Source of the DNA: Chamaelirium japonicum
Lineage: Eukaryota; Streptophyta; Magnoliopsida; Liliales; Melanthiaceae
Length of the DNA: 64,000 nucleotides
Direction: 5' to 3'
Assembly: GCA_947650365.1 (NCBI GenBank)
Contig: OX393552.1
Coordinates: forward strand, 46,640,999-46,704,998
Positions 8,301-31,362 of the stretch are shown in pieces (within the stretch, counting starts at the first letter, position 1; each line of letters starts with the position of its first letter). Below the pieces are notes generated by a model. It was not told where the DNA came from. It ran no database searches and saw only the letters and a program-made list of their open reading frames with translations. A program made the translations under genes and the position numbers.

Positions 8301-10400
8301 TGGATCGTACGATGCAATCTAATTCATTCGCACGATCCATTCTAATTCATTCGTACGATCCATTCTAATTCATTCATATGATCCATTCTAATTTATTCGT
8401 TCAAATATATCCATCCTAATTTATTCGTACGATCCGTTCTAATTCATTCGCACATACGATCCACTCTTATTCATTCGCACGAATGCATGCATTCTAATTC
8501 ATTTGCACGATCCATTCTAATTCATTCCTATGATCCATTCTAATTCATTCGTACGATCCATTCTAATTCATTCGTCCGATCCATTAAAATTCATTCGTAT
8601 GATGCAATCTAATTCATTCGCACAAATGTATCTATTCTAATTCATTCGTACAATGCGTTCTAATCTATTCGTACGATCCATTCTAATCCATTCGTACGAT
8701 CCATTCTAATTCATTCGTATGATCCATTCTAATTCATTCGTACGATCCATTCTAATTTTTTTGCATGAATGTATCCATCTAATTCATTCGTACAATCCAT
8801 TCTAATTCTTTCGCACGATCCATTCTAATTCATTCGTATGATCCATTCTAATTCATTCCTACGATCTATTCTAATTCATTCGCTCGAATGTATCTATTCT
8901 AATTCATTCGTTCGATCCATTCTAATTCATTCGTACGATCCATTCAAATTCATTCGCATGATTCATTCTAATTCATTCGTACGATCCATTCTAATTCATT
9001 CTCACGAATGTAACCTTTCTAATTCATTTGTATGATTCATTCTAATCTATTCGTACGATCCGTTCTAATCCATTCGTACGATCCATTCTAATCCATTCGT
9101 ACGATCTATTCTAATTCATTCTCACAAATGTAACCTTTCTAATTCATTTGTACGATCCATTCTAATTCATTTGCACAAATGTATTCATTCTAATTCATTC
9201 GTACGATCCATTCTAATTCATTCGAACGATCCATTCTAATTCATTCGCACGATCCATTCTAATTCATTCGTACGATCCATTCTAATTCATTCGCACGAAT
9301 GTATTTATTCTAATGCATTCGTACGATCCATTCTAATTCATTCGTACGATCCATTCTAATCCATTCGTACGATCCATTCTAATTCATTCATACGATCCAT
9401 TCTAATTCATTCTCACAAATGTAACCTTTCTAATTCATTTGTACGATCCATTCTAATTCATTCGTACGATCCATTCTAAGCCATTCGTACGATCCATTCT
9501 AATCCATTCGTACGATCCATTCCAATTCATTCGCACGAATGTAACCATTCTAATTCATTCGTACGATCCATTCTAATTCATTCCTACGATCCATTCTAAT
9601 TCATTCGCACGAATGTATCCATTCTAATTCATTTGCACGATCCATTCTAATTCATTCCTATGATCCATTCTAATTCATTCATACGATCCATTCTAATTCA
9701 TTCGCTCGAATGTATCCATTCTAATTCTTTCGTACGATCCATTCTAATTCATTTGTAAGATCCATTTTAATTCATTTGTATGATCCATTCTATTTCATTC
9801 GTCTGATACATTCGTGCGAATGAGTTAGAATGGATCATACGAATGAATTAAAATGGATCGTACGAATGAATTTGAAAGGATCGTACGAATGAATTAGAAT
9901 GGATTGTGCGAATGAATTAGAATGGATACATTCGTGCGAATGACTTAGAATGGAATGTAAGAATGAATTAGAATGGATCGTACCAATGAATTAGAATGGA
10001 TCCATTCGTACAAATGAATTAGAATGGATCGTACGAATGAATTAGAATGGATCGTACGAATGGATTAGAATGCATTGTACGAATGAATTAGAATGGATCG
10101 TACGAATGGATTAGAATGGATCGTACGAATGAATTAGAATGGATCGTACGAATGAATTAGAATGGATACATTCGAGCGAATGAATTAGAATGGATCGTAC
10201 GAATGAATTAGAATGGATCATAGGAATGAATTAGAATGGATCGTGCAAATGAATTAGAATGGATCGTAGGAATGAATTAGAATGGATTGTACGAATGAAT
10301 TAGAATGGTTACATTCGTGCGAATGAATTAGAATGTATCGTACGAATGGATTAGAATGGATCATACGAATGGATTAGAATGGATCGTACGAATGAATTAG
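8301..10400. repeat. Internal segmental duplicate B1 (partner at ~36897-40440)
   Basis: From the reverse-to-forward switch at ~8305 onward, the series of variant units recurs from ~36897. Shared marks are ACGATGCAATCTAATTC, TTATTCGTTCAAATATATCC, CGCACATACGATCC and later CATTCTAAGCCATTCG. After the forward-to-reverse switch (9808 here, 39812 in the partner) both copies continue with GAATGAGTTAGAATGG and GGAATGTAAGAATG. The partner is longer because of extra tandem copies inside it. Confidence 0.75.
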
Positions 10401-13400: not shown

Positions 13401-16400
13401 CCATTCTAATTCATTCGTACGATCCATTCGTACGAATGAATTAGAAAGGTTACATTCGTGAGAACGAATTGGAATGGATCGTGCGAATGAATTAGAATTG
13501 ATCATACAAATGAATTAGAATGGATCATATGAATGGATCGTACGAATAAATTAGAATAGATCGTGCGAATGAATTAGAATAGATCGTACGAATAAATTAG
13601 AATGGATCGTACGAATAAATTAGAATGGATCGTGCGAATGAATTAGAATGGATAGTATGAATGAATTAGAATAGATCGTGCAAATAAATTAGAATGGATC
13701 ATACGAATGAATTAGAATAGATATATTCATGCGAATGAATTAGAATGGATCGTACGAAAGAATTAGAATGGATCGTGCGAATGAATTAGAATGGATCGTA
13801 TGAATAAATTAGAATGGATCGTACAAATGAATTAAAATAGATACATTTGTGCGAATGAATTAGAATGGATCATACGAATGGATCGTACGAATGAATTAGA
13901 ATGAATTAGAATAGATCGTACGAATGGATTAGAATGGATCGTACGAATGAATTAGAATGGATCGTACAAATGAATTAGAAACGTTACATTTGTGAGAATG
14001 AATTAGAATGGATCGTGCGAATGAATTAGAATGGATCGTACGAACGAATTAGAATGGATCATACGAACGACTTAGAATGGATCATATGAACGAATTAGAA
14101 TGGATCGTACGAATGAATTAGAATGGATACATTCGTACGATCCATTCTAATTCATTCGTACGATCCATTCTAATTCATTCGCATGATCCATTCTAATTCA
14201 TTCGTATGAGTTATTCTAATTCATTCGTACGATCCATTCTAATTCATTCGTACGATCCATTCTAATTCATTCGCACAAATGTATCCATTCTAATCCATTT
14301 GTATAATCCATTCTAATTCATTTGCAAGATTCATTCTAATTCATTCCTATGATCCTTTCTAATTCATTCGTACGATCCATTCTAATTCATTCGCTCGATG
14401 GTATCCATTCTAATTCATTCGTACGATCCATTCTAATTCCTTTTTACGATCAATTCTAATTCGTTCGTACGATCTATTCTAATTCGTTTGTACGATTCAT
14501 TCTAATTCATCCGTACGATCCATTCTAATGCATTCGTACGATTCATTCTAATTCGATTAGAATGGATCGTACGAATGAATTAGAATGGATCGTATGAATG
14601 AATTAGAATGAATCGTACGATCCATTCTAATTCATTCGTCCGATCCATTCTAATTCATTTGTACGATCCATTCTAATTCATTCGCACGAATGTATCCATT
14701 CTAATTCATTCGTACGATCCATTCTAATTCATTCGTATGATCAATTCTAATTCATTCGCACCATCTATTCTAATTCATTCGTACGATCCATTCTAATTCA
14801 TTCGCACGAATGTATCCATTCTAATTCATTCGCACGATCCATTCAAATTCATTCGTACGATCCATTCTAATTTATTCGCACGAATGTGTCCATTCTAATT
14901 CATTCACACGAATGTAACCATTCTAATTCATTCGCACGATCCATTCTAATTCATTTGTACGATCCATTCTAATCCATTCGTACGATCCATTCTAATTCAT
15001 TAGCACGAATGTAACCATTCTAATTCATTCATATGATCCATTCTAATCCATTCCTGCGATCCATTCTAATTCATTCGTATGATCCATTTTAATTCATTCG
15101 TACGATCCATTCTAATTCATTTGCATGAATGTATCTATTCTAATTTATTCGTACGATCCAGTCTAATTCATTCGTACGATCCATTCTAATTCATTCGCAC
15201 GAATATAGATCATACGAATGGATTAGAATGGATCGTACAAATGAGTTATAATGGATCATATGAAAGAATTAGAATGGATCGTGCGAATGAATTAGAAAGG
15301 ATCATACGAATGAATTAGAATGGATATATTCGTGCGAATGAATTAGAATGGATCGTACGAATGAATTAGAATGGATATATTTATCCGAATGAATTAGAAT
15401 GGATCGAACGAATGAATTAGAATGGATACATTTGTGCGAATGAATTAGAATGGATCATACGAATGAATTAGAATAGATATATTCATGCGTATGAATTAGA
15501 ATGGATCGTATGAATGAATTAGAATGGATTGTACGAATGAATTAGAATGGATACATTCGTGCGAATGAATTAGAATGGATCGTGCGAATGAATTAGAATG
15601 GATTAGAATGCGAATGAATTAGAATGGATCGTACGAATGAATTAGAATGGATCGTACAAATGAATTAGAAAGGTTACATTTGTGAGAATGAATTAGAATG
15701 GATCGTACGAATGACTTAGAATGGATCGTACGAATGGATTAGAATGGATCGTACGAATAGATTAGAATGGATCGAACGAATGAATTAGAATGGATACATT
15801 CGAGCGAATGAATTAGAATGGATAGTACGAATGAATTAGAATATATCATGCGAATGAATTTGAATAGATCGTACGAATGAATTAGAATGGATCATACAAA
15901 TGAATTAGAAAGGTTACATTCGTGAGAATGAATTAGAATGGATCGTACGAATGAATTAGAATGGATCATGCGAATCAATTTGAATGGATCGTACGAATGA
16001 ATTAAAATGGATCATACAAATGAATTAGAAAGGTTACATTCGTGAGAATGAATTAGAATGGATCGTACGAATGAATTAGAATGGATACATTCGAGCGAAT
16101 GAATTAGAATGGATCGTATGAATGAATTCGAATGGATCGTGCGAATGAATTAGAATGGATCGTACAAATGAATTATAATGGATACATTTGTGTGAATGAA
16201 TTAGAATAGATTAGAATGGATCGTACGAATGGATTAGAATCCATTCTAATTCATTTGTATAATCCATTCTAATTCATCGCTCGATCCATTCTAATTCATT
16301 CGCTCGAATGTATCCATTCTAATTCATTCATACGATCCATTCTAATGCATTCGTACGATCCATTCTAATTCATTCGTACGATCCATTCTAATTGATTCGT

Positions 16401-18172
16401 ATGATCTATTCTAATTCATTCGCTCGAATGTATCCATTCTAATTCATTCGTACGATCCATTCTAATTCATTCATACGATCCATTCTAATTCATTCGGTCG
16501 AATGTAATCTAATTCATTCACACAAATGTATCTATTCTAATCCATTCGTACGATCCATTCTAATTTATTCATACAAATGTATCCATTCTAATTCATTCGT
16601 ACGATCCGTTCTAATTCATTCGTACGATCCATTCTAATTCATTCGCTCGAATGTATCCATTCTTATTTATTCATACGATCCATTCTAATTCATTCGTACG
16701 ATCCATTCTAATTCATTTGCACGATCCATTCTAATTCATTCGCACAAATGTATCCATTCTAATTCATTCTAATTCATTCGCTCGAATATATCCATTCTAA
16801 TTCATTCGTACGATTCATTCTAATTCATTCGTACGATACATTCTAACTCATTCGTACGATCCTTTCTAATTCATTCGCACGAATGTAACCTTTCTAATTC
16901 ATTTGTATGATCCATTCTAATTCATTTGTACGATCTATTCAAATTCATTCGCATGATCCATTCTAATTCATTCGTACGATCCATTCTAATTCATTTGCTC
17001 GAATTTATGATCCATTCTAATTCATTCGTACGATCAATTCTAATTCATTCCTACGATCCATTCTAATTCATTCGCACGAATGTAACCATTCTAATTCATC
17101 TGCACGATCCATTCTAATTCATTCCTACGATCCATTCTAATTCATTCGCATGAATGTATCCATTCTAATTCATTTGCATGATCCATTCTAATTCATTCGT
17201 ACGATCCATTCTAATCCATTCGTACGATCCATTCTAATTCATTCGAATGATCCATTCTAATTCATTCGTATGATCAATTCTAATTCATTCGCACGATCCA
17301 TTCTAATTCATTCGTATGATCCATTCTAATTCAATTCGTGCCATCCATTCAAATTAATTAGCACAAATGTATCCATTCTAATTCATTCGTATGATCCATT
17401 CTAATTCATTCGCTCGAATGTATCCATAATAATTCATTCGTACGATCCATTCTAATTCATTCGTACGATCCATTCTAATTCATTCGTACGATCTATTCTA
17501 ATCCATTCGTACGATCCATTCTAATCCATTCGTACGATCCATTCTAATTCATTCGCACGTACAATCCATTCTAATCCATTCATACGATTTATTCAAATTT
17601 ATTCGTACAAATGTAGCTATTCTAATTCATTCGTACAATGCGTTCCAATCCATTCGTACGATCCATTCGAATCCATTCGTACGATCCATTCCAATTCATT
17701 CGCACGAATGTTACCATTCTAATTCATTCGTACGATCCATTCTAATTCATTCGCACGATCCATTCTAATTCATTCGCACGTTCCATTCTAATTCATTCGT
17801 ACGATCTATTCTAATTCATTCGCACGAATGTATCCATTCTAATTCATTCGTACAATCCATTCTAATTCATTCGTACGATCAATTCTAATCCATTCGTACT
17901 ATCCATTCTAATCCATTCGTACGATCCATTCTAATTCATATGCACAAAGGTATCCATTCTAATTCATTTGTACGATCTATTCTAATTCATTCGCTCGAAT
18001 GTATGCATTCTAATTCATTCGTTGGAATGGATACATTCGTGCGAATGAATTAGAATGGATCGTACGAATGAATTAGAATGGATCGTGCGAATGAATTATA
18101 ACTGATCATACAAATGAATTAGAATAGATCATACGAATGAATTAGAATGGATCGTACGAATGAATTTGAATG

Positions 18173-18177
18173 GATAC
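18173..18177. other. Target-site duplication, left copy (GATAC)
   Basis: GATAC lies directly before the first base of the 5' LTR and is repeated directly after the last base of the 3' LTR at 31358-31362. Removing the element and one copy restores a normal reverse 28-bp satellite unit (GAATGGATACATTCGTGCG), so the insertion site is exact. Confidence 0.95.
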
Positions 18178-18300
18178 TGTTGGGGGTAGACAGAAACCAC
18201 ATATCTTGGGTAGCATTGCAAACGCATCTGAGATAAGAGTTCTCGAGGGAGCCCGTCCAAAAAGCTCGCCCTCCCAGCCCATCAGGAGCCCGCCCCCCCC

Positions 18301-18482
18301 ACAGGGAGCTGGATGGACACCTTGTATCTGAGTGCAGCTCGCCTCTCCCAACCCCTCAGGAGCTCGCCCCACAGGGAGCTGGATGGACACCTTGTATCTG
18401 AGTGCAGCTCGCCTCTCCCAACCCCTCAGGAGCTCGCCCCACAGGGAGCTGGATGGACACCTTGTATCTGAGTGCAGCTCGC
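18301..18482 (+). repeat. 70-bp tandem repeat in the 5' LTR (about 2.6 copies)
   Basis: ACAGGGAGCTGGATGGACAC recurs at 18301, 18371 and 18441, a period of 70 bp. The third copy diverges after GTGCAGCTCGC near 18482. The same array is present at 30145-30326 in the 3' LTR. Confidence 0.92.
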
Positions 18483-18570
18483 AGGAGTTCGCTCCCCCGT
18501 GCTCACCAAATCACCTTGACAGGGAGCGAGATCCACATTAGGCTGAAAGGGCCCAGGCCAAGAGCACTCT

Positions 18571-18895
18571 TAAGAGCTCGCCTGAGCTCGATGGAGCTCG
18601 CCTGAGATCGCCCAGAAGCTCGCTCAGGAGCTCGCCTGAGCTCGACGGAGCTCGCCCGAGATCGCCCAGAAGCTCGCTCAGGAGCTCGCCCCGTAGCTCG
18701 CCAAGCTCACCCAGGAGCTCGCCTAAGCTCGCTCAGGAGCTCGCCCCGGAGTTCGCCAAGCCCGCGCGAGAACTCGCTGGCAGTGATAGCGGGAGTTAGA
18801 CCGTCATGCATAACGAAGACACCGGCATCGCGAACGCCCCTAGCTCGCGCAGGAGCTCGCCCCTAGCTCGCTCAGGAGCTCGCCCAAGCTCGCCA
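18571..18895 (+). repeat. GAGCTCGC-rich degenerate repeats in the 5' LTR
   Basis: AGCTCGC, often within the palindrome GAGCTC, occurs at very high density. Part is a 54-bp tandem duplication (starts near 18574 and 18628), followed by looser copies to ~18775 and again at 18840-18895. The region is upstream of the LTR TATA box, in the U3 part, where such repeats can act as transcription-factor arrays. That role is an inference. The copy in the 3' LTR is at 30415-30739. Confidence 0.8.
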
Positions 18896-19277
18896 GAATT
18901 CCCCAGTTTATCGAGGAGGTTGCTCCCGCGAGGTCCGACTCTTGATAGATGTGGAAGAGAAGGCGGAGCAATAGAGGGCGAGCTCACTTTAGCTCCCCGT
19001 CGGAGGTCGCCCACAATGTATGAGGAGATGCCAGGTGGCAAAACCCCACGGAAGCTACGTGGACAAACGTGGCCCACGGAAGCTCGCTCGAATCAGTTCG
19101 AGACCTCCCAGACTTGAACATTCCAGAATGGCCACCTGGCCACGACAAGAAAGATTCCCTCCCCCACTCAAACCGCCTGGCAGGCCTGACGACAGAATGT
19201 CAGGGCGCGAGTACCAAGGACTGTCAGACCCACGCGAGCCAGAACGTGGGGGGTCTAGAAGGCGCCGGAAGAATCTC

Positions 19278-19317
19278 CACGTGTCGGGCCACGGTAGGCC
19301 GCCGATTGCTATAAATG
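19278..19317 (+). promoter_or_regulatory. LTR core promoter: G-box and TATA box
   Basis: CACGTG at 19278-19283 is a plant G-box core. CTATAAATG at 19309-19317 is a good TATA box. The LTR runs about 195 bp further to its end, so transcription would start near 19340, marking the U3/R boundary. The same pair lies at 31122-31161 in the 3' LTR. The start site is inferred from spacing only. Confidence 0.75.
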
Positions 19318-19515
19318 CTCACCCCCAGGCTCCATAGTACAGGTTCGAAATCCCTTTTCCTTCCTCTTTGGTCCATTACAGCTCGCCGTTGTGCCACTGT
19401 GACTGACTTGAGCGTCGGAGGGTCTGCGCTCCGGAGGGAGCCAGCCGTTCTCACGTTCTCTTTTCTTTGTCTTGCAGGCAGCCCGCACGGACCAGCGAAA
19501 AATCCCCCGAACATT

Positions 19516-19532
19516 TGGCGCCGTCTGTGGGA
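19516..19532 (+). other. Primer-binding site (tRNA-Asp-like)
   Basis: TGGCGCCGTCTGTGGGA begins two bases after the LTR. Its first nine bases, TGGCGCCGT, are complementary to ACGGCGCCA at the 3' end of plant tRNA-Asp. The later bases match less well. Position and sequence fit the minus-strand primer site of plant Ty3/Gypsy elements. Confidence 0.8.
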
Positions 19533-19603
19533 TCTTCGACTGGTTCCTGCGAGAACGCCTACGACCACGCGGTTGAGCGCAGTTCGCTCTCGTAACCTCA
19601 AGG

Positions 19604-20881
19604 ATGGCTCCGGCGACAAGGGGACGCAGGCGACCGAGGACTCGTGCCAGATCTGCGCGCAGCGAGCCTCCAGTCGAGACCCCTCAGCCCCAGGTCCCGC
19701 TCAGCGACCAACTCTTGTTGGAGATGTTGGCCACCCAGCGGGCGATGATGGAGGAGCTGACACGATTGCGTCAGGCTCCGGCGGCCAGCCGACGATCTGG
19801 GCCGGCGAAGACGGTGTCTCCGGTGCGACCACCGGCGTCAACATCGCGACCGCCCACGGTCGCTCCGGTGCGGCAGGTTTCCCAACCGGAACCCCCAGTC
19901 GGGAGAGCGGCTGTACGCGGGGTGCCGGAAACCCCGCTCACAAGGTTGCAGAAGCTAGTCACCCAGCGATCTAGCAACCAGGCGACCTCGCGCGCGACCA
20001 TTCCCTGCCGCCGTAGCCGGAGCGCCGATTCTGAGGGGTCGGAGGCAAGATCTCTAGAGCGGGATCGCGACCCACGCCATCGGCGACGAGGGAAAGAGCC
20101 CGCGGTGGAAATATCTTCAGGAGCTCGAGAGGCAACGGCCTCCCACAGACCAACTGACGCGCCGAAGGAATCCGTGGGTGGACAGCAAGGAGCCCGCCGA
20201 GCGGTTGCCCCCGAGGGTCGCCGCGGGGTGGGGCCGACCTCGCCACAAGGGAGCGTACGAGACCGCCTAGGACCTGCGCAGCCGCCTCTGGGAGTTCTCC
20301 CCGGGCGCTGGCGGCGACCTAGTGCGCCAGTAGATTTACTTGAAGACCTTGCCGCCCACGGAGGTAGCTCGCCTTTCACCAGCGAGGTCCACCCAGGGGG
20401 ATTTCCGCACCACTGGACCCCCCCGAAGTTTGTATTGTTCGACGGGTCGCAGGATCCCGTTGACCATCTCTTGGCTTACAGAAAGCTTCTATTTTTCCGG
20501 GACCAAGACCACGTCTTGTGCCGAGCATTCCCGAGCAGTTTGACCGGCTCGGCATTGAACTGGTTTCACAAGTTGCCGCCCGGCACGATCCCCGACTTTC
20601 CAACTCTCTCTAGGCTATTCCTGGAGCAGTATCGCTGCAATAGGCAGCCCCCGAAGAGAATCGAGTCTCTGTTTACTTTAACCATGGGAGCTCGCGAGAC
20701 GCTCCGGTGCTTCGCAACGCGATTCCGGAGCGCCTACCTCGCTCTGGAAGACGCGGCGGGCCAAGATCGTACCGTGGTGAGCGCTTTCAGAAGCGCCCTC
20801 CCCGAGGGTTGCAAGCTTCATGACGCTCTAGTGATCAAGGACCCTCGCACGATGGTCGAACTATTTGCCCTGGTCCAGTAA
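19604..20881 (+). CDS. gag: Gag, N-terminal and capsid part, ended by an in-frame TAA
   Basis: This is the structural protein of the retrotransposon particle. The ATG at 19604 sits in a good context (AAGGATGGC), 91 bases after the LTR, and opens 425 codons. Residues 1-240 are basic and rich in Pro, Arg and Ser. From about residue 265 there is a retrotransposon gag (PF03732-type) region with FDGSQDPVDHL, LTGSALNWF and FLEQYRC. The TAA at 20879-20881 cuts the frame just after the capsid-like region. The same frame continues at once with typical Tat Gag sequence (IKLEDA), so the stop looks like a mutation inside gag and not its natural end. The following bases (CACATC) do not match the known CARYYA leaky context. 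Whether the truncated product functions is unknown. Confidence 0.88.
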   Translation: MAPATRGRRRPRTRARSARSEPPVETPQPQVPLSDQLLLEMLATQRAMMEELTRLRQAPAASRRSGPAKTVSPVRPPASTSRPPTVAPVRQVSQPEPPVGRAAVRGVPETPLTRLQKLVTQRSSNQATSRATIPCRRSRSADSEGSEARSLERDRDPRHRRRGKEPAVEISSGAREATASHRPTDAPKESVGGQQGARRAVAPEGRRGVGPTSPQGSVRDRLGPAQPPLGVLPGRWRRPSAPVDLLEDLAAHGGSSPFTSEVHPGGFPHHWTPPKFVLFDGSQDPVDHLLAYRKLLFFRDQDHVLCRAFPSSLTGSALNWFHKLPPGTIPDFPTLSRLFLEQYRCNRQPPKRIESLFTLTMGARETLRCFATRFRSAYLALEDAAGQDRTVVSAFRSALPEGCKLHDALVIKDPRTMVELFALVQ

Positions 20882-22108
20882 CACATCAAGCTTGAAGACG
20901 CTGTGCTAGACCGAAAGGGAAAGGCAGTCGAGCAGCGACCTCCTCCGGCCCCGCGACCGCTCGTCGTCAAGGCCGTGGAGAGAAGGGAGGTGCCCCTGGC
21001 GGTGGCTTTGCCTGGACCGCCCGCTGTTCCTGCTGAACAGCCCGCTGAAGCCCCCACGGCTGTCGCTGGAAGGCCGGCGAACTGGCGCCTGCCTCCAGGA
21101 CCCGGGGAGCGGGATTTCACCGTGCTGACACACTCGCCAGGACAAATCTTCCATCAGATTCGGAATGAACCTTTCTTCCAGTACCCGCCACCCCTACAGG
21201 TCGGAGAGCCTGGCTCTACCGACAACTCGCGGCGGTGCGCCTTTCATCGAAGCCCTGGGCATCACACTAACAGATGCCGGGCTCTCAAGAACCACCTCGA
21301 GGACTTGGTCACCCAGGGCCACTTGAATCAGTTTATTTCGCCTCCAAGGAGGTTCGAGGTAGTACCGACACGGGCCCCTCGGGAGGGAGATCGCCCGGGG
21401 CCCGCTGAGCCCGCCCTGCCTCCGCCTCCCGCGGAGGGACCGGCGATCTGCCATACCATTAGCGGGCGGCTGTGCGGCCCGAGATCCAGTAATGAAGCCC
21501 GCCGACGAGTCAGGGAGATGGAGCGGGCACAAAAGGTATTTTCCGTCTCGCTAAGTCCTACTTTACTTCAAGCACCAAGGGTGGAAGCCCGCGATTTTCT
21601 CTGGTTTTCGGAAGATGACATGACTGGGGTCGTTACGCCCCACAATGACCCCCTCGTCATACGCCTGATGATGGCTAACATCGAGGTGAGGCGAGCTCTG
21701 GTTGATCCGGGGAGCGCCGTGGACATCCTTTTTCTGTCGGCCTACCTACGAATGGGGTTGAGACTCGCCGACCTGTCTCCCTCGACGAGCTCCCTCAGTG
21801 GGTTCACCGGAGAGGTCGCCAGAGTGGCAGGGGAGATAACCCTTACGGTGACCGCTGGCCCAGAGGCTCGCCAAGTCCGCTTCGCGGTAGTGGATGGAAG
21901 TTCCGCATTTAACGCCATCCTTGGGCGGCCTTGGCTAAGGCAAATGAATGCGGTAGCTTCACCCAACCATCAGGCCCTCAAATTCCCGACCGCGAGCGGG
22001 GTCGTAGTAATTCGGGGTGATCAGGTAGCCGCTACCCGATGCGAGCAGGATGTCCTTCACCTCAGGGACATGGAGGTCGCCGAGGCCAAGAGGCCCGCAC
22101 CCTCCTAG
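20882..22108 (+). CDS. Gag C-terminal part with zinc knuckle, plus aspartic protease
   Basis: This is the same frame as gag, directly after its TAA. The open stretch contains GTG but no nearby ATG, so it would normally be made only as part of a Gag-protease polyprotein. Around 21237-21278 there is a C-x2-H-x4-H-x4-C knuckle (CAFHRSPGHHTNRC), as in Tat Gag proteins. The protease active site is LVDPGSAVDILF, with its Asp codon at 21704-21706, followed by AILGRPWL, a typical retropepsin C-terminal motif. The usual DTG/DSG is DPG here, which is seen in Tat-type elements. The protease would cut the polyprotein inside the particle. The frame ends at the TAG at 22106-22108, described separately as a probable leaky stop. 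Confidence 0.85.
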   Translation, partial: HIKLEDAVLDRKGKAVEQRPPPAPRPLVVKAVERREVPLAVALPGPPAVPAEQPAEAPTAVAGRPANWRLPPGPGERDFTVLTHSPGQIFHQIRNEPFFQYPPPLQVGEPGSTDNSRRCAFHRSPGHHTNRCRALKNHLEDLVTQGHLNQFISPPRRFEVVPTRAPREGDRPGPAEPALPPPPAEGPAICHTISGRLCGPRSSNEARRRVREMERAQKVFSVSLSPTLLQAPRVEARDFLWFSEDDMTGVVTPHNDPLVIRLMMANIEVRRALVDPGSAVDILFLSAYLRMGLRLADLSPSTSSLSGFTGEVARVAGEITLTVTAGPEARQVRFAVVDGSSAFNAILGRPWLRQMNAVASPNHQALKFPTASGVVVIRGDQVAATRCEQDVLHLRDMEVAEAKRPAPS

Positions 22109-22114
22109 CAATTA
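22106..22114 (+). promoter_or_regulatory. Probable programmed readthrough stop between protease and Pol (TAG CAA TTA)
   Basis: The stop separating Gag-protease from Pol is TAG followed by CAATTA. This is exactly the tobamovirus leaky context (UAG CAR YYA). Both sides are in the same frame, and the first in-frame ATG of Pol is only at 22409, inside the RT region. A leaky stop would make Gag-protease in excess over Gag-Pol, as particles need. The sequence match is seen directly; function in this element is inferred. Confidence 0.75.
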
Positions 22115-25100
22115 CCGCCCGCTACGAGCGAGCTATTGGGGAGCCCGCTGGAGGCCTCCTCGCTTAAGTCCCCTACTCCACCCCCGGGTGGGAGCGGTGT
22201 GGACCTTAAGTTGGAGGAGGGAGGTCGCCCGACAACCCCCAAGAGAGGAAGTTTTCCAATTGCCGAACCACTTCAAGAGGTCGACATTGGCGGCAAGGAA
22301 GGGCCAGGAGTTGTTAGCCTCGGGACCTCGCTAGCCAAGGGCGAGGTCCTGGCCATAACCAACTTGCTCAGGGAATACCGTGACGTATTCGCCTGGAGCT
22401 TCGCGGACATGCCAGGGATTGACCCGGAGGTCGCCTGTCATCGTCTGCACACCATGAAGGAGTTCCCGCCGGTCAAGCAGAAAGCTCGGCATATACCTGC
22501 TGCAAAGTCCATTGCAGTGGCGGCAGAGATAGACAAGCTGGAGCGAGCCGGCTTCATCCGCGAGGCGCACTTCCCCGAGTGGATCTCCAATATCGTGGCG
22601 GTGCCAAAGAAGAGCGGAGCGGTCAGGGTGTGCATCGACTTCTCCGACCTCAACAAGGCATGCCCGAAGGATGGATTTCCTCTTCCGAGAATAGGCGCAC
22701 TGGTCGACGCAGCTGTCGGGTTCCAGGCCCTGTCCTTCATGGATGGATATTCTGGGTATAACCAGATACCTCTCCACGCCGACGATCAGGAGAAGACCGC
22801 CTTCTACTCCGGAGCGGGCTACCAGAAGTTGTACTGCTATCGAGTGATGCCGTTCGGACTTAAGAACGCTGGAGCGACCTACCAAAGGCTAGTCACTCAG
22901 ATGTTCAAAGATCAGATCGGCAGAAACGTCGAAGTTTATGTAGACGACCTCCTGGTGAAGAGTCGGGAGAGGGAGGGGCATGTTGCCGATCTCCGCGAAA
23001 CCTTCGAGGTACTGAGAAAGTACCAAATGAGGCTAAACCCGGCGAAGTGCGCATTCGGGGTGACGTCGGGGAAATTCCTCGGGTACCTGGTCACCCACAG
23101 GGGGATCGAGGCCGACCCTGGGCAGATCCGAGCACTTGTCGAGATGCCCGCGCCGAGGACCCGGCAGGAAGTCCAGAGGCTGAGCGGGCGAATCGCCGCG
23201 CTCAATCGGTTCATCTCCAAATCCTCAGACAACTGCCGACCTCTTTTCGAGCTGCTACGAAAAGGAGCAAGCATTTGTTGGGATGAGAAGTGCGAGCACG
23301 CCTTCCAAAAGATCAAGGACTACCTGGCGAGCCCACCGATCTTAGCGGCACCAAAAGAGGGCGCCGAACTCGGCGTGTACCTTGCGGTCACTGAGAATGC
23401 GGTGAGCGGGGTCCTGGTTGTGGAAGAAGCAAAGGTGGAGCATCATGTCTACTTTGTAAGCCACACAATGCTTCCCGCCGAGCTCCGGTATCGACCAATC
23501 GAGAAGGTCGCATTGGCCTTGGTCCTTACCGCGAGAAAGCTCCACCCCTACTTCTCGGCGCACCCTGTCAAGGTCATCACGGAGCACCCTCTAAAGAGCG
23601 CGCTCTCCAGGCCCTCAGTAGCCGGCAGGCTCTACCGTTGGTCCGCCGAGCTCGCCGCCTACGGCTTGGAGTATGTCCCTCGAGTTGCGGTCAAAGGACA
23701 GGCGCTCGCCGATTTCTTGGCGGACTTCCCCATAGAAGAACCGGTCCAGTACCGGGAGGATGAGCCAACTGAGGCACACCCTGGGAAGGCGAGGTTCTTG
23801 GACAATCAAGGCGAGCATCCTCCAACTAAGCGTTCAGAGGAGGCAGGCTGGGAATTATTCGTCGATGGATCCTCCAACGCTTTGGGGGCTGGGATCGGGG
23901 TCGCACTGATCGCCCAGTCGGTACTTCTGGAAAAGTCAGTCCGACTGGATTTCGCCGCTACCAACAATGAGGTGGAATATGAGGCGCTGCTGGCCGGCCT
24001 GGAGCTCGCCAAAGAGGTAGGCGCCAAACGCCTGAAGGTCTTTAGCGATTCCCAGCTAATTGTTTGCCAAGTCAATGGGGAGTACGCCTCTCGGGACGCA
24101 CGAATGGCGGGCTACGTGGATCTGGTGAAGCACAAGGCCGCGGAGTTCGAAAAGATTTCCTTGGAGCAAATTCCGCGAGCCGATAATAGGCGAGCTGATG
24201 CTTTGGCAAACGCCGCCTCTTTGCTGGGAACATCAGAGGCTCGCCAGATTCTCATCGAAGTCCAAAGTCAGTCTCGGCTCCAACTGATGGAGCCCGCTGT
24301 TAACCAAGTCTCCGCCAACGTACCACTCAGCGGGTGGACCGCCCCCATTTTTCGCTTTCTCCAGAAGGGCGAGCTACCAGAGGATAGAGAGGAAGCCCGG
24401 CGAGTGGAGAAATGCGCTGGGCGCTATCTCATTCGCTGGGATCGCCTTTTTCGAAGATCCTTTGGCGGGCCAAGTCTCCGTTGCGTCGAGAGCCCGGAAA
24501 CCGAAGAAGTTCTAAAGTGCATTCACTCTGGCGAGCTGGGAAACCACGCTGGTGGGCGGTCTCTTGCTGCGAAAGTACGAAGGCAAGGATACTGGTGGCC
24601 CACTCTGGAGCAAGACGCTTTGAAGGTCGCCCAGAGGTGCATCCAGTGCCAGAAGCACGCCACCACGAACCATATGCCCGCAGAAGAACTGCATCCTCTG
24701 GCGAGCCCCTGGCCTTTCCAGCAATGGGGGTTGGACATTGTGGGACCTTTCCCTGTGTCTACCCGACAGAAGAAATTCATCTTAGTAGCTACGGACTACT
24801 TCACCAAATGGGTGGAAGCGGTCCCGCTAGCTAAGATTGGTGAGAAGCAAGTCAAAGACTTCCTTTGGAAGAATATTTTCTGTCGCTTTGGGCTACCCCG
24901 AGTGCTCATCACCGACAATGGTCGCCAGTTCGACAATCGCTTGATCAGAAGCTTTTGCATCGAATACAGGGTCGACCTAAGGTTCTCGTCTCCGAGGTAC
25001 CCTCAAAGCAACGGGCAGGCCGAAGCAACGAACCGAGTAATCCTAGATAACCTCAAGAAAAGGTTGGAAGGAAAGAAAGGACTATGGGAGCAGGAGCTCG

Positions 25101-25570
25101 ACGGCGTGCTGTGGGCCTATCGTACCACTCCACGTCGCTCGACCGGCGAATCGCCTTTCAGCCTGACTTACGGGTGTGAAGCCGTGCTGCCCACCGAAGC
25201 CGAGCTGCCAACGGAAAGAAAGCTTGCTGCAGGTGAGGTCGATAACGACGTTCTGCTCGCCGACTCCCTAGACCAGCTCGAAGAAAGACGAGAGCGCGCC
25301 AATCTACATCTCGCTGGGTACCGACAAGAAATGAAGCGCGCCTATGACAAAAGAGTCCGCCATCGGGCATTCAAAGCCGGGGACATGGTGATGAGAAAGG
25401 TGTTCGCAAACACGCAGGAGCCTAATGCAGGGAAGCTCGCGGCGAACTGGGAGGGTCCCTACATAATACACGAAGCGCGTGGCTCGGGGGCTTACCAGTT
25501 GATGACCGCTGAAGGCGATTTGTTAGAGCGGCCTTGGAATGCTTTGCACCTTCGCAAGTTCTATGCCTAA
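22109..25570 (+). CDS. pol: Pol: reverse transcriptase, RNase H, second RNase H, integrase
   Basis: The open frame of about 1,153 codons copies the RNA genome into DNA and integrates it. Residue numbers count from the TTG at 22136. RT shows IDFSDLNKACPKD, SFMDGYSGYNQI and YVDDLL (catalytic Asp pair at 270-271). A Gypsy-type RNase H follows, with LGVYLAVTENAVSGVL, where the first catalytic Asp seems lost. The second RNase H keeps LFVDGSSNALGAGIG, NNEVEYEALL, VFSDSQL and ADALA, as in Tat elements. Integrase has an HHCC finger (HSGELGNHAGG ... CIQC) and the catalytic triad D867, D927, E963 with D-35-E spacing. A C-terminal WEGPY module ends near LHLRKFYA. No internal stop or frameshift is visible, so Pol looks intact. 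There is no initiating ATG; expression probably depends on readthrough of the TAG just upstream. Confidence 0.95.
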   Translation, partial: QLPPATSELLGSPLEASSLKSPTPPPGGSGVDLKLEEGGRPTTPKRGSFPIAEPLQEVDIGGKEGPGVVSLGTSLAKGEVLAITNLLREYRDVFAWSFADMPGIDPEVACHRLHTMKEFPPVKQKARHIPAAKSIAVAAEIDKLERAGFIREAHFPEWISNIVAVPKKSGAVRVCIDFSDLNKACPKDGFPLPRIGALVDAAVGFQALSFMDGYSGYNQIPLHADDQEKTAFYSGAGYQKLYCYRVMPFGLKNAGATYQRLVTQMFKDQIGRNVEVYVDDLLVKSREREGHVADLRETFEVLRKYQMRLNPAKCAFGVTSGKFLGYLVTHRGIEADPGQIRALVEMPAPRTRQEVQRLSGRIAALNRFISKSSDNCRPLFELLRKGASICWDEKCEHAFQKIKDYLASPPILAAPKEGAELGVYLAVTENAVSGVLVVEEAKVEHHVYFVSHTMLPAELRYRPIEKVALALVLTARKLHPYFSAHPVKVITEHPLKSALSRPSVAGRLYRWSAELAAYGLEYVPRVAVKGQALADFLADFPIEEPVQYREDEPTEAHPGKARFLDNQGEHPPTKRSEEAGWELFVDGSSNALGAGIGVALIAQSVLLEKSVRLDFAATNNEVEYEALLAGLELAKEVGAKRLKVFSDSQLIVCQVNGEYASRDARMAGYVDLVKHKAAEFEKISLEQIPRADNRRADALANAASLLGTSEARQILIEVQSQSRLQLMEPAVNQVSANVPLSGWTAPIFRFLQKGELPEDREEARRVEKCAGRYLIRWDRLFRRSFGGPSLRCVESPETEEVLKCIHSGELGNHAGGRSLAAKVRRQGYWWPTLEQDALKVAQRCIQCQKHATTNHMPAEELHPLASPWPFQQWGLDIVGPFPVSTRQKKFILVATDYFTKWVEAVPLAKIGEKQVKDFLWKNIFCRFGLPRVLITDNGRQFDNRLIRSFCIEYRVDLRFSSPRYPQSNGQAEATNRVILDNLKKRLEGKKGLWEQELDGVLWAYRTTPRRSTGESPFSLTYGCEAVLPTEAELPTERKLAAGEVDNDVLLADSLDQLEERRERANLHLAGYRQEMKRAYDKRVRHRAFKAGDMVMRKVFANTQEPNAGKLAANWEGPYIIHEARGSGAYQLMTAEGDLLERPWNALHLRKFYA

Positions 25571-25678
25571 GTGAATTTTTGTAAATTATCGTTAGAGGTT
25601 ATGAATGAATGACGGGATTTTCCACAAAGAATTCCACCCGGAAGCTCGCTGCACCAAGAGCTCGCTTGATCTACAAAG

Positions 25679-25990
25679 CAGTCCGCCGTTGTGCGGACTT
25701 AAAGCAAGACCGGGATCCTCAGAGGCAGCCAGTGGGCGACCTTGAGCTTCCCGGGGCAGTCCGCCGTTGTGCGGACTTAAAGCAAGACCGGGATCCTCAG
25801 AGGCAGCCAGTGGGCGACCTTGAGCTTCTCGGGGCAGTCCGCCGTTGTGCGGACTTAAAGCAAGACCGGGATCCTCAGAGGCAGCCAGTGGGCGACCTTG
25901 AGCTTCCCGGGGCAGTCCGCCGTTGTGCGGACTTAAAGCTAGACCGGGATCCTCAGAGGCAGCCAGTGGGCGACCTTGAGCTTCCCGGGG
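25679..25990 (+). repeat. 78-bp tandem repeat, four copies, after pol
   Basis: Four near-identical 78-bp units start at 25679, 25757, 25835 and 25913; a fifth is broken after AAGTCCGCTGCC. Each starts with a 6-bp stem and 6-base loop (GTCCGC CGTTGT GCGGAC). As 78 is divisible by three, open frames run through on both strands, but no start, ending or family resemblance suggests a protein. The block lies in the 3' untranslated part of the sense transcript. Confidence 0.93.
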
Positions 25991-26430
25991 AAGTCCGCTG
26001 CCCAAGAGGACTCTAAGCCTAACTAGGATCCTTCGCGTTCACCTGCCATGAACGGAAGCATCCTGGCGTTGGCGTACCCCTCGAAGGGCGAGCCCGCCGA
26101 ACAGGACCATCGAGAGAAATTAACCGGGCAGGGGGCAGCTAGCACTTATTAGTTTTCTTTTAAAATAAAATTGGTTTAAGTCTCTGAGTGTAGGGAAGTT
26201 TTTGAAGTCTTTTGGTTTGCTTAAACGTTTTCCGGGCTCAGAGACTGTCGAGTTTTTGCGAGCATGCCGAGTTTTTCGTATTGCATATGTTTTAAAAATA
26301 AAAAGATTGAATCGAATTAGCCGCCTCGCTCGGGGTATCACTCTCGAGGTCGCTGTGAACTCCTAGAGCGGACTCATGAGCAACGCAAAGAAAGATAAAA
26401 AGACACAAAGTCGAGCTTAAAAAGATGAAA
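25991..26430 (+). other. Gap between pol repeats and antisense gene, with sense AATAAA motifs
   Basis: No gene is seen here. On the plus strand AATAAA occurs at 26164-26169 and again within TAAAAATAAAAAG near 26293. These could end a short sense transcript before the antisense gene, although a genomic transcript must read through to the 3' LTR. Confidence 0.4.
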
Positions 26431-26478: not shown

Positions 26479-29029
26479 TCAAGGCTTGCTTGTCTCCGCC
26501 CCACTGTCGTCTCCTCGGCGCCGCTTCTTCGACCTTTCGGTCTTGTATTTCTCCACAGCGGCCAGGGCGCCTTTCTTGAGGAGATCGTCCAGTTGAGTTT
26601 GGAGGCGGTCTTGCTGAGCCCGAAGGCCGTTGGCGTGCGTCTCTTTCAAGGCAGCGATCTCCGTCTTCAGAGCAGCAGCCTCGCCTTGAAGTTGAGCCGC
26701 CTCCCGCTGCGCGACCTCCCGGGCGGACACAGCTTCGTCTCGCTCCGCCTTGGCCTTGAAGAGGGCGGTAGCGGACAGGCCTTTGGCTACCTCGGCCATG
26801 GCGAGGCCTGACGCCAGGGTTTTGACCCTGCGGTGCAGTGCCTCTGACTCCGCCTTCAGCTCCTCGGAGCCCTTGGCTAGCTGGAGCTCGTGGATGTGCT
26901 CGTCCACCTTGCGTTCAGACCCCCGAAGGGAATCATCGAACAAAGCGGCCAGCGCCTTCCCGGCCCCAGCGACCTCCGCGGCCAGCGCCTGGCTCTGCTT
27001 CTCCGCCTGCATAAGAAAGGTAAAGAGGTTAGCAAGAATTGAGACTAAAATTTACCCAGACAGGTGCGGAGCGTACCTCGGCCAGGCGCTCGCTTATAGA
27101 AGCGAAGGGAGCTCGCGCGAAAACGTTGCGGCCCAGCAGCTGCCGCACGTAGTGGGGCGCCCTCCCTTCCTCTATAGAGGAACCCGCGCTGGGACCGCCG
27201 GGAGCTCCGGAAAGAGGGGGCACGCCGGGAGGAGTGGGGGCTATCACCTCCCCCGGGCGAGCTCCGGCTCCTGACGGGCTCGGAGGGTCCGCCGTGGCCC
27301 CCTTGGCCTCCGACTCCGAGCTGAAGGACTCGGAATCGGAGCCAATGTCTACGAAACTCGGGGACCTGTAGACCAGGTCCCCTAAGCCCTGCTGGGAGCC
27401 CGCTCCCTCCTGGCCCTCTGCAGGAGGCGAGGTCGGAGGGGCGGGGGCTGGAGCGGCCTCCGGTGTAAAGGCCACGGGAGGAGGAGCCGACACCGGCAAG
27501 GAGGTCGCAGCGACGGCGTCTGACTCGCCCTGCTGGATCCCTGCCCCGTCGGCGGGAGATGGCGGCTCCTGCCCGCTTGACCCCGCCCCTGGTACGGGAG
27601 CTGATGGAGTCGCGGGCTTCTCCACTTGGGCGGAAGCAGAAGGCTCCGCCTGGGAAGGCCGAGGAGCGGGCTCTTCCTCCTCGGGGCCTGAGGCCTCTTC
27701 CGCGGAGTCCGTCCAGCTGGGCTCCGAGTCCAAGCCCGCCTCCTCCAGCGCTTTCTGCCGTTGCGCCGCCTGGACGTTAGAAGGCGCGGGCCCCGCACGC
27801 TTGGCCTTCTTCTTCCCGCGCGCCTCCATCTCCGGCGTCATCACTGCTACACGAAGCGGCACGGTCAGATCGCCCGGAAAGTAGCCCATTAAAATTTGAG
27901 CCATCCCGGATTCGACTTCCGCCATGGTTAGCGGGAGGTCGATGTTCGGGTCGTCGGGCTCGACCATTTGGATCTTTCGGCGGACTATGGGAGTTGGGGC
28001 AGTGGGCTGACCTGGGCCGGCGTCCGGGCGAGGAGGTGGCGGGGGAGCGGAGGCTTCACCCTGGCGGAGCATCTCTAGGGTGTCGGGGTCGTCGAAGCGG
28101 ATGGGCGAGGCCCGCCTCCGTGCCACCTTCTTGCGGGGGTTGCCTCCGGAGCTCCCTGCCCCCTTGCTGGCCCCTTTAGAGGGAGGAGGGGCGTTCTGCA
28201 TCGGCGGAATAGCACCGACCTCCTCCTCTTTCTTCTTCCGGACCACTTTCTGCTTCAGCAGAATAGCGCCGGTCTTCCCGTCCTTCAGCTGGAAGGCGAA
28301 GTCGGGAGCGGTGATCTTCTCTGGAGTCCGCCCACCAAGGTAGTGGAGGATCGCCTCGTCCAGAGATCGCTCCCGGTCGGGAGCGATGCACTTCTTCTTC
28401 CCCGCCTTGTAGAAGGAGATCTCCCGGAAGACCGCCGTCGGGGGAACCCCGGGGTGAGCCGGGACTCCGCTGTGCCGCCCGCGCCAGTCGCCGACCGCCA
28501 CGAAAGGATAGTCCTTCCAGTGGCGGTCCTTGCTCTCGATGGTGGAGAAGGGGAGCACCTCGCCAGGCCGCCCGGCGAGGTAGAAGTAGCCGCAGCCCGC
28601 GGTACTGAAGACCGGTGAGGGCTTGAGGAGCCACTTTTTGAGCAAGTAGCTCAGTGGGATCCTAGCCTTCAGAGCGGTCTCCAGCTGGGACAGCCCGTAG
28701 AGTATCCCCCAGGAGTTTCCTGAGAGTTGGGCGGGGCAAAGCCCCGTCAACTCCAGGAGCTCCCCGGCGAGATGACTCAGGGGGAACCGCAGCCCGGACC
28801 ACAGCAGCCCGACAGAAGCTACTGTGCCCTGGGGCGGCCTCCCCGAGAGTGGCATCTCGGTGACGAGGATCTCCCGAGGGAGATCGATCGCCGCCCGGAT
28901 ACTGTCCCCGACAGGCACCCCGACGGGGTTTTGCAGCCAGACCACCGCCCTTTCGGTGGCGGGCTCAGCGGCCTGGGCGGCAGCAGCAGCGGCAGCAACA
29001 GCAGCAGCAACGTCAGCAGCGGAAGCCAT
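26479..29029 (-). CDS. Two-exon antisense gene of the retrotransposon (Transposase_28-like, coiled coil)
   Basis: Exon 1 is 29029-27077 and exon 2 is 27006-26479. The 70-bp intron (GTACGC...TTATGCAG) joins them in phase 0, giving 826 aa. The start is the ATG at 29029 (MASAADVAAA); the frame is open 14 codons further, but only to a TTG. An Ala-rich start is followed (residues ~70-190) by a region with ELLELTGLCPAQLSGNSW and GCGYFYLAGRPGE that resembles PF04195, the so-called putative gypsy-type transposon family. The middle is basic, then Pro/Ser/Glu-rich and acidic. Exon 2 encodes a long Ala/Glu/Lys coiled coil ending in KKRRRGDD, a possible nuclear signal. Antisense genes of this type are known in Tat elements such as Grande; their function is not established. 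The frame is intact. Confidence 0.82.
27007..27076 (-). other. 70-bp intron of the antisense gene
   Basis: On the minus strand the donor is GAG|GTACGC and the acceptor is TTTCTTATGCAG|GCGGAG after a pyrimidine-rich stretch. Without splicing the first frame ends after 15 further codons. With splicing both exons join with no frame change. The length, 70 bp, is not a multiple of three, so its removal matters. Confidence 0.78.
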
Positions 29030-29447
29030 AAGAGCAGAAGGGCTAAAGCGAGCTGAAAGCGCTAGAAGCAAAGGGAGAAGGGAGAGCTGTTTTCACGCAG
29101 CAGTAAAAATTGCCCCCCGTCCCCTATTTAAAGGCGAGCGAGAGACAGGTGAATCGATCCGCATTTAATGCCCAAGCGCGCTCGGCGAGGCGATGTGACG
29201 GCGATCAAAGCGACAGCTCGCTTCTCTCAAATCGTCGAGCGCCACGTGGACCACGCGTGGAAAAAGCTGCGCCGGCGCCAGCACTGTCCTTTATTGACAG
29301 AGAAAGGGACAAATGAGGAGGAGACACGCGTCTCGCGCCGATCGGGGTCTCATGATGAGATTCGCTGTATCAGCGTTGAGCCTCGCGCCGCAGTTAAGGT
29401 GAAGCGACCGTTGGAGATTCGGTGCGATACCCAAGTCACAAGATCGC
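29030..29447 (-). promoter_or_regulatory. Promoter region of the antisense gene, TATA-like box at 29120-29133
   Basis: Read on the minus strand, CCTTTAAATAGGGG lies at 29133-29120, about 95 bases before the antisense ATG at 29029. That leaves a leader of about 60 bases if transcription starts 30 bases after the box. No competing coding region is seen in this stretch. The three 146-bp repeats lie just upstream of it and could serve as enhancer copies. Both roles are inferred. Confidence 0.5.
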
Positions 29448-29885
29448 CCGCGGCAGGCGCCCCAAGCTCGCCCGAAGCAGACCCTGACCGCGTGTGACAA
29501 GCTCGCACCGGAAGGAGATCGCTCGTGGCTGACGCTCGTGGCCCGTCCAGCGTTTGAAAAGTACTGAGAGTCAAAACTCTCGATGCAGACCGCTCGCGGC
29601 AGGTGCCTGCGGCTCGCCCGAGGCAGACCCTGGCCGCGTGTGACAAGCTCGCACCGGAAGGAGATCGCTCGTGGCTGACGCTCGTGGCCCGCCCGGCGTT
29701 TTTGAAAAGTACTGAGAGTCAAAACTCTCGATGCAGACCGCCCACAGCAGGCGCCCAAGCTTGCCCGAAGCTGACCCTGACCGCATGTGAGGAGCTCGCA
29801 TCGCAGGAGATCGCTCATGGCTGATGCTCGTGGCCCGCCCAGCGTTTGTGAAATACTGGCAGTCAAAGTTCTCGGCGCAGGCCGC
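29448..29885. repeat. 146-bp tandem repeat, three copies, before the 3' LTR
   Basis: Three diverged copies of about 146-147 bp share CAGACCCTGACCGCGTGTGA, GGAGATCGCTCGTGGCTGA and CTGAGAGTCAAAACTCT. The GCTCGCA landmark recurs at 29501, 29647 and 29794. Short open frames in either direction are shared between copies and look fortuitous. The block is upstream of the antisense promoter and upstream of the polypurine tract. Confidence 0.88.
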
Positions 29886-30009
29886 CATCGCTACTATCTC
29901 CGCCCCGCAAGAAAATGGTTACGGCAGACATTGATATCAGGCACATTGCCGGGGATAGGAGTTCGCTAAGACTCCTGAGCAAGCGTCGAGTTTCCTCGAT
30001 CACTCCCTC

Positions 30010-30021
30010 AGGAGGGGGTAA
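30010..30021 (+). other. Polypurine tract
   Basis: AGGAGGGGGTAA directly precedes the TGTTGG start of the 3' LTR. This is the position and base composition expected for the plus-strand primer of reverse transcription. Confidence 0.88.
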
Positions 30022-31357
30022 TGTTGGGGGTAGACAGAAACCACATATCTTGGGTAGCATTGCAAACGCATCTGAGATAAGAGTTCTCGAGGGAGCCCGT
30101 CCAAAAAGCTCGCCCTCCCAGCCCATCAGGAGCCCGCCCCCCCCACAGGGAGCTGGATGGACACCTTGTATCTGAGTGCAGCTCGCCTCTCCCAACCCCT
30201 CAGGAGCTCGCCCCACAGGGAGCTGGATGGACACCTTGTATCTGAGTGCAGCTCGCCTCTCCCAACCCCTCAGGAGCTCGCCCCACAGGGAGCTGGATGG
30301 ACACCTTGTATCTGAGTGCAGCTCGCAGGAGTTCGCTCCCCCGTGCTCACCAAATCACCTTGACAGGGAGCGAGATCCACATTAGGCTGAAAGGGCCCAG
30401 GCCAAGAGCACTCTTAAGAGCTCGCCTGAGCTCGATGGAGCTCGCCTGAGATCGCCCAGAAGCTCGCTCAGGAGCTCGCCTGAGCTCGACGGAGCTCGCC
30501 CGAGATCGCCCAGAAGCTCGCTCAGGAGCTCGCCCCGTAGCTCGCCAAGCTCACCCAGGAGCTCGCCTAAGCTCGCTCAGGAGCTCGCCCCGGAGTTCGC
30601 CAAGCCCGCGCGAGAACTCGCTGGCAGTGATAGCGGGAGTTAGACCGTCATGCATAACGAAGACACCGGCATCGCGAACGCCCCTAGCTCGCGCAGGAGC
30701 TCGCCCCTAGCTCGCTCAGGAGCTCGCCCAAGCTCGCCAGAATTCCCCAGTTTATCGAGGAGGTTGCTCCCGCGAGGTCCGACTCTTGATAGATGTGGAA
30801 GAGAAGGCGGAGCAATAGAGGGCGAGCTCACTTTAGCTCCCCGTCGGAGGTCGCCCACAATGTATGAGGAGATGCCAGGTGGCAAAACCCCACGGAAGCT
30901 ACGTGGACAAACGTGGCCCACGGAAGCTCGCTCGAATCAGTTCGAGACCTCCCAGACTTGAACATTCCAGAATGGCCACCTGGCCACGACAAGAAAGATT
31001 CCCTCCCCCACTCAAACCGCCTGGCAGGCCTGACGACAGAATGTCAGGGCGCGAGTACCAAGGACTGTCAGACCCACGCGAGCCAGAACGTGGGGGGTCT
31101 AGAAGGCGCCGGAAGAATCTCCACGTGTCGGGCCACGGTAGGCCGCCGATTGCTATAAATGCTCACCCCCAGGCTCCATAGTACAGGTTCGAAATCCCTT
31201 TTCCTTCCTCTTTGGTCCATTACAGCTCGCCGTTGTGCCACTGTGACTGACTTGAGCGTCGGAGGGTCTGCGCTCCGGAGGGAGCCAGCCGTTCTCACGT
31301 TCTCTTTTCTTTGTCTTGCAGGCAGCCCGCACGGACCAGCGAAAAATCCCCCGAACA
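30022..31357 (+). repeat. 3' LTR (1,336 bp)
   Basis: A direct copy of 18178-19513. It carries the same 70-bp array (30145-30326), GAGCTCGC-rich part, G-box and TATA box. I found no mismatch with the 5' LTR. It ends CCCCCGAACA and is followed at once by the GATAC target duplication and satellite. Confidence 0.96.
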
Positions 31358-31362
31358 GATAC
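31358..31362. other. Target-site duplication, right copy (GATAC)
   Basis: Identical to 18173-18177. It is followed by ATTCGTGCGAATGAATTAG, which continues the reverse satellite unit interrupted on the left side. Confidence 0.95.

Follow-up and report, generated by a model that had tools for sequence, protein, structure and literature searches.

An in-frame UAG with a tobamovirus-type readthrough context between gag-protease and pol in Retand-like retrotransposons of Chamaelirium japonicum

The window analyzed here, a stretch of 64,000 nucleotides from contig OX393552.1 of Chamaelirium japonicum (assembly GCA_947650365.1), carries a long terminal repeat (LTR) retrotransposon that was assigned to the Retand-like elements (Tat, Ty3) on the basis of its domain order and an antisense open reading frame (ORF). 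The gag-protease ORF (20882-22108) and the pol ORF (22109-25570, 1153 codons) lie in the same frame, and a TAG followed by CAATTA stands at their junction, as an earlier note on this DNA had pointed out. Judged from the sequences compared below, this TAG is very probably a working, programmed readthrough site of the tobamovirus type that sets the ratio of Gag to Gag-Pol. The features of the coding region are as follows.

19604-20878, + strand: gag, counted from the first ATG, with a Retrotrans_gag domain at 20525-20800
20879-20881, + strand: TAA within gag
20882-22105, + strand: remainder of gag and protease, with DPG at 21704-21712 and then AILGRPWL
22106-22108, + strand: UAG, candidate leaky stop between gag-protease and pol (predicted readthrough site)
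22109-22114, + strand: CAATTA, which fits CAR-YYA, the tobamovirus-type readthrough hexamer (consensus: PMC2754532)
22115-22408, + strand: in-frame linker and N-terminal pol block, up to the first ATG (22409)
22601-23086, + strand: reverse transcriptase (RVT_1, Pfam)
23279-23575, + strand: RNase H (RT_RNaseH_2, Pfam)
23864-24217, + strand: second RNase H, archaeal-type (RVT_3, Pfam), a mark of Tat
24491-25003, + strand: integrase, zinc-binding part and catalytic core (Pfam)

The Pfam domains thus follow the order gag, reverse transcriptase, RNase H, archaeal-type RNase H and integrase. A Pfam search of 20882-22105 (gag remainder and protease) gave no match, and part of this stretch is presumed to be protease from its motifs (DPG, AILGRPWL). 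TAGs followed by CAR-YYA are rare in the window, with 2 of 1311 on the + strand, one of them at the junction, and 0 of 965 on the - strand. Behind the TAG, the first ATG is indeed at 22409, as had been claimed, but it does not lie inside the reverse transcriptase profile; it is 192 nt before the RVT_1 match and 3' of an N-terminal pol block that recurs in other families. Nor is the frame split only by the TAG, since the TAA at 20879-20881 interrupts it in gag.

Conservation of the junction was assessed in further copies of the window element's family (family 1), with copy counts that come from similarity searches of one genome and are lower bounds. A query spanning the junction supplied the first 30 copies, which are hence biased, while the other 30 were selected for exact flanks, with any letters allowed at the nine junction positions. 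The resulting 60 rows, which include the window copy, represent 59 places (L013 and L051 being the same), and two further places, L008 and L012, are identical in sequence over the compared stretch. All 60 rows keep TAGCAATTA and none has a sense codon at the TAG; the flank-picked copies do so at divergences from the window of up to 11%. Among the 29 flank-picked rows that remain once the duplicate is removed, the 9-mer has 0 changes against 12.6 expected from the mean divergence, with 14 of 983 other 9-mers equally invariant and the junction flanks being part of the selection. The junction 9-mer is exceptional in these rows, but it is not alone in its invariance.

Across the whole genome, exact junction flanks were found at 405 places, 384 of which have the exact 9-mer too. 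In 100 listed places of these 405, TAG was present in all 100 and was followed by CAATTA in 97, by CAATTG in two and by CTATTA in one. The least biased sample comprises the first 20 of 494 places that match an exact pol motif 630 bp from the junction. All 20 have TAGCAATTA, with 0 of 180 letters changed compared with 12.3% changed in the flanks, and eight of the copies differ by 22–26%. Six of the 20 are places sampled already (L031-L036), the eight distant copies look like one subfamily, and three overlapping 9-mers 5' of the TAG, at 22082-22096, are likewise invariant in this sample.

The TAG may instead have arisen as a plain nonsense mutation in the master copy of a lineage whose pol is dead, with other elements supplying in trans the proteins for its spread. 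Stops are common in the copies, with 44 others at 29 sites in the 60 rows, some of them shared by several rows, and the window copy itself has a nonsense codon in gag. Each of these other stops recurs in few rows, however, and none of the 44 carries CAR-YYA. In 31 of the 60 rows (29 of 58 without two duplicates) the TAG is the only stop over 20597-23625 and there is no indel over 20640-23600. A stop at the place of the TAA at 20879-20881 is found in 4 of the 60 rows, the window copy included (row L003 is without that place), so this TAA is damage and not a family trait.

Selection on the coding region bears on the same alternative. It was estimated from 57 family 1 rows with the window copy as the reference, shared variants being those seen in at least three rows, and the ratio of nonsynonymous to synonymous changes (N/S) was divided by a neutral N/S, itself roughly modeled with a single transition weight. 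For the reverse transcriptase, which lies behind the TAG, this value is 0.11 for shared variants vs 0.53 for singletons; for gag and protease, which lie before it, the values are 0.17 vs 0.66 and 0.16 vs 0.61, respectively. Pol behind the TAG is therefore under strong purifying selection, and since the TAG is present in all rows, this suggests that pol is made and selected in the lineage that carries the TAG. This selection, along with the recurrence of the stop and of its type of hexamer at the corresponding position in four other families (below), makes a nonsense mutation with a dead pol extremely unlikely.

These other families (2 to 5) were reached through matches to the antisense ORF (PF04195) elsewhere in the genome, which led to family 2 and one family 3 copy, and through a protein search with the family 3 piece, for which 150 places were listed, 40 stretches read and 24 counted. 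Three of the 12 stretches chosen by PF04195 (L071, L072, L080) had no gag, protease or pol match. Nine further stretches yielded the junction in four (L084, L085, L087, L089), parts only in another four (L081, L082, L083, L088) and nothing in L086. Among the 40 stretches of the protein search, 14 belong to family 6 (below), the DNA upstream in L119 is unrelated, and L121, a family 5 copy with a shifted frame, retains TAGCAATTA but not in the frame of pol. The archaeal-type RNase H (PF13456) was also tried as a route to more families; it gave eight stretches with no tblastn match to the element, which when read by eye looked like long interspersed nuclear element (LINE)-type reverse transcriptase, and the route was dropped. 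A same-score RNase H-like match with one TAG inside made up 107 of 150 listed matches, on more than a hundred small contigs of this genome, such as G000:C476 and C2234. Two protein scans of viral contigs gave 3 and 26 pattern matches and no relatives.

In families 2 to 5, all 37 junction rows read in frame have TAG at the homologous place. For the table below, each row was located by a motif that includes the TAG, and its counts are of the hexamers only.

Family 2: CAATCA 10, CAATTA 1, TAATCA 1
Family 3: CAACCA 6, CAACTA 2
Family 4: CAATCA 10, CAAGCA 1
Family 5: CAATTA 5, AAATTA 1

CAR-YYA follows the TAG in 34 of these 37 rows, with YY being TT, TC, CC or CT. The codon after Gln in the 34 fitting rows encodes Leu, Ser or Pro, yet YYA is kept, and a changing amino acid under a constant base rule points to selection on the nucleotides rather than on the protein. 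Similarly, the 9-mers of family 1 and families 2 to 5 are 78–100% identical, whereas their 30-nt flanks share 17–33%, which is about chance level; between family 3 and families 2, 4 and 5 the flanks are 20–50% identical. The N-terminal reverse transcriptases (one sequence per family) of families 2, 4 and 5 are 79–91% identical to one another. Family 1 and a further family, family 6, are 64–70% identical to these three and to each other, while family 3, compared over one 97-residue piece, is 52–58% identical to the rest. The tobamovirus-type leaky stop proposed in the earlier note therefore gains support, at the level of sequence comparison, from family 1 and from four further families. The check that the note had set, by which a sense codon or another stop context in related copies would count against it, came out in its favor within family 1.

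The families also allow two other routes to Pol to be weighed. In the Ogre elements, a sister lineage, an intron forms the region between the two ORFs (PMC6317226), and an intron across the TAG, spliced from part of the transcripts, might similarly give Gag-Pol from spliced RNA. The frame is open through the junction, however. A comparison of families 2 and 4 over the 47 codons that follow the TAG, all before the first ATG of family 2, gives a nonsynonymous divergence (dN) of 0.26 and a synonymous divergence (dS) of 2.96, the latter near saturation, and a ratio of 0.09. The changes are mostly silent even in codons 1-12, where 6 of 9.0 synonymous and 6 of 27.0 nonsynonymous sites are changed (ratio 0.16, on small numbers). 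With silent change this close to the stop, an intron would be limited to some tens of bases. As splicing would also leave the conservation of CAA-YYA unexplained, it is a very improbable source of Gag-Pol here.

Pol could otherwise be made separately, by internal initiation, by reinitiation at an ATG or from a promoter at the junction, the last of which has been put to the test in the Candida element Tca2 (PMC2194720). One copy was read per family, and the ATG nearest behind the stop is at codon 101 in family 1, 52 in family 2, 13 in family 3, 7 in family 4 and 53 in family 5. The early ATGs of family 4 and the family 3 copy would suit such a mechanism, but the varying position indicates that there is no conserved start behind the TAG, and the ATG of families 1, 2 and 5 comes after most of the linker. 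Separate synthesis would also not account for the hexamer or for the frame shared by both ORFs, and we consider it very unlikely. RNA structure downstream of the stop was considered as the main signal of readthrough and rejected, being inconsistent across families, and a signal of the CAR-YYA type needs none. Folding z-scores were -0.43, -2.48, -0.15 and -2.57 for families 1, 2, 4 and 5, respectively (one copy each, pseudoknot-free folding).

In family 6, a related Retand family, protease and reverse transcriptase are in one open frame of up to 2124 codons. The linker between the two is repeat-rich and built of 18-residue repeats. This stop-free layout with a repeat linker was found in rows L096-L103, L108, L115-L118, L122 and L130, with frame-shifted stops in L098 and L118.

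Several observations weigh against a programmed readthrough site. None of the 14 family 6 stretches read shows a TAG CAR-YYA, whatever the frame, and gag and pol are fused in this family, which means that not every Retand element needs the stop. The hexamer is broken in 3 of the 37 rows of families 2 to 5 (TAATCA, CAAGCA, AAATTA) and in 3 of the 100 listed family 1 places (two CAATTG, one CTATTA). Families 2, 4 and 5 still share 37–67% of their flanks, family 3 is known here from decayed copies only, and all of the families come from one genome and have a common descent, and thus do not count as independent trials. The neutral model behind the selection estimates is a rough one. Selection on the family 1 linker is weak, at 0.67 for shared variants vs 0.86 for singletons, with few sites, and at least three of the 57 rows share each of three stops besides the TAG, two of them in gag and the third in the reverse transcriptase. 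Downstream folding does not exceed that of shuffled sequences in two of the four families. Lastly, the window copy is itself damaged, as shown by the in-frame TAA in gag, and cannot use the junction site cleanly.

Taken with these points, programmed readthrough is still the reading that we hold to be very probable, and it would work as follows. Most ribosomes would terminate at the UAG and release Gag-protease. A minority, aided by the CAA-YYA that follows, may decode the UAG with a near-cognate tRNA and would then continue in frame to give Gag-protease-Pol, and this partial readthrough would set the ratio of Gag to Gag-Pol. Readthrough itself, as well as its rate, the tRNA used and the ratio as the reason for it, is what we infer from the comparison. 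In tobacco mosaic virus (TMV), the six bases CAR-YYA adjoining the UAG are essential for readthrough, which reaches ∼10% in vivo (PMC2754532), and CAR-YYA is the sole readthrough signal (PMC2194720). On a wider scale, readthrough at UAG-CAA-YYA is, by a modest balance of probability, the ancestral Gag-Pol switch of an entire branch within the Retand elements. It would then have been selected as nucleotides since before the split of families that share 52–58% of their reverse transcriptase residues, and would have been lost in the one family that fused gag and pol through a long linker built of repeats.

The remaining features of the element are listed below.

18173-18177 (left) and 31358-31362 (right): target site duplication GATAC (sequence)
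18178-19513, + strand: 5' LTR, 1336 nt, 0 differences from the 3' LTR
19516-19533, + strand: primer-binding-site-like stretch directly 3' of the 5' LTR (sequence)
27029-29092, - strand: antisense ORF of 687 codons between pol and the 3' LTR
30010-30021, + strand: polypurine tract AGGAGGGGGTAA (sequence)
30022-31357, + strand: 3' LTR, 1336 nt, 0 differences from the 5' LTR

The LTR ends were set at TGTTGG and GAACA, with the 5-bp GATAC duplication flanking both sides. A BLAST alignment of the long repeats covers 1342 nt with two differences, both of which are beyond the LTR borders, and the identity of the LTRs over 1336 nt suggests that the insertion is very young. In pol, RVT_3 (amino acids 586-703) is located between RT_RNaseH (423-518) and Integrase_H2C2 (795-851), and an archaeal-type RNase H at this place is the mark of Ogre and Retand (PMC6317226). 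The 4451 bp from the end of pol to the 3' LTR, which include the antisense ORF, are in the published range for this region of Retand elements (2933–6566 bp), where an antisense ORF is typical (PMC11963269). The antisense ORF of the window gave no Pfam match at E 0.001, Transposase_28 (PF04195) included.

The usual form of the protease active site is D-S/T-G; at the active-site-like triad of family 1 (21704-21712), 37 of the 60 rows have DPG, 22 have DSG and one has DSR. Approximately five head-to-tail 78-bp repeats are present directly 3' of pol (25600-26067), with inner units 99% alike, and 146-bp repeats that are 84–90% alike are present between the antisense ORF and the 3' LTR (29441-29886). 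The element is inserted inside a long satellite array of 23-bp units (2482-17993 and 31697-57503), which also has longer periods near 74, 97, 120 and 143.

Little is documented on how Pol is produced by plant Ty3 elements that have two gag/pol ORFs. A survey of Retand elements reported one gag/pol ORF in 37 and two in 26 of 63 recent clusters, and in its available text such two-ORF elements are counted without the words readthrough or translation (PMC11963269). The two-ORF layout is thus less unusual than the earlier note had held, the more so as the gypsy-type rice retrotransposons (RIRE2) are already cited as readthrough candidates (PMC2754532). With a conserved six-base signal, the question of Pol expression can be put directly to the dual reporters that exist for plants. 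A signal of plant RNA viruses may also serve abundant genomic elements, considering the 405 exact-flank places in one genome. If readthrough were the ancestral switch of a Retand branch, plant retrotransposons would depend on the same weakness in decoding by the plant ribosome as tobamoviruses do.

Readthrough in retroelements is already known, with SIRE1 as an example and RIRE2 as a candidate, and what is new here is its place and the comparative evidence. No report of a conserved UAG CAR-YYA at a plant gag-pol junction was found in the available literature searched, a scope that excludes most subscription journals; in a fungal element CARYYA was sought and not found (PMC3441728). RIRE2 of rice is of the Retand lineage (PMC6317226), to which the window element is assigned here, and is likened to it by lineage and by its citation as a readthrough candidate. 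In Moloney murine leukemia virus the protease lies behind the stop, unlike in the window element, where it lies before it. That virus likewise has a same-frame UAG at the Gag/Pol border, with ∼5% readthrough, but it needs a purine-rich spacer and a pseudoknot (PMC2194720), whereas the hexamer is the conserved part here. The Ogre elements, within Tat as well, place gag-protease and pol in two ORFs, with a region between them that averages 274 bp and is a spliced intron in the species tested (PMC6317226), in contrast to the one stop in an open frame of the window element. SIRE1 of soybean is a plant LTR retrotransposon reported to rely on stop codon suppression (PMC2829016), and is among the elements with an in-frame stop (PMC2194720), but it is a Sirevirus (Ty1/copia) whose stop lies between pol and an envelope-like ORF instead of between gag-protease and pol. 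The closest parallel in the signal itself is the replicase UAG of TMV, which as here is followed directly by CAR-YYA. The CAA codons flanking the TMV stop matter (PMC2754532), and family 5 has CAA on both sides of its UAG. Although TMV reads through a stop in an RNA virus replicase, and readthrough is predicted here for the gag-protease/pol junction of a retrotransposon, the arrangement proposed is the same, with the stopped product in excess and the extended product carrying the polymerase.

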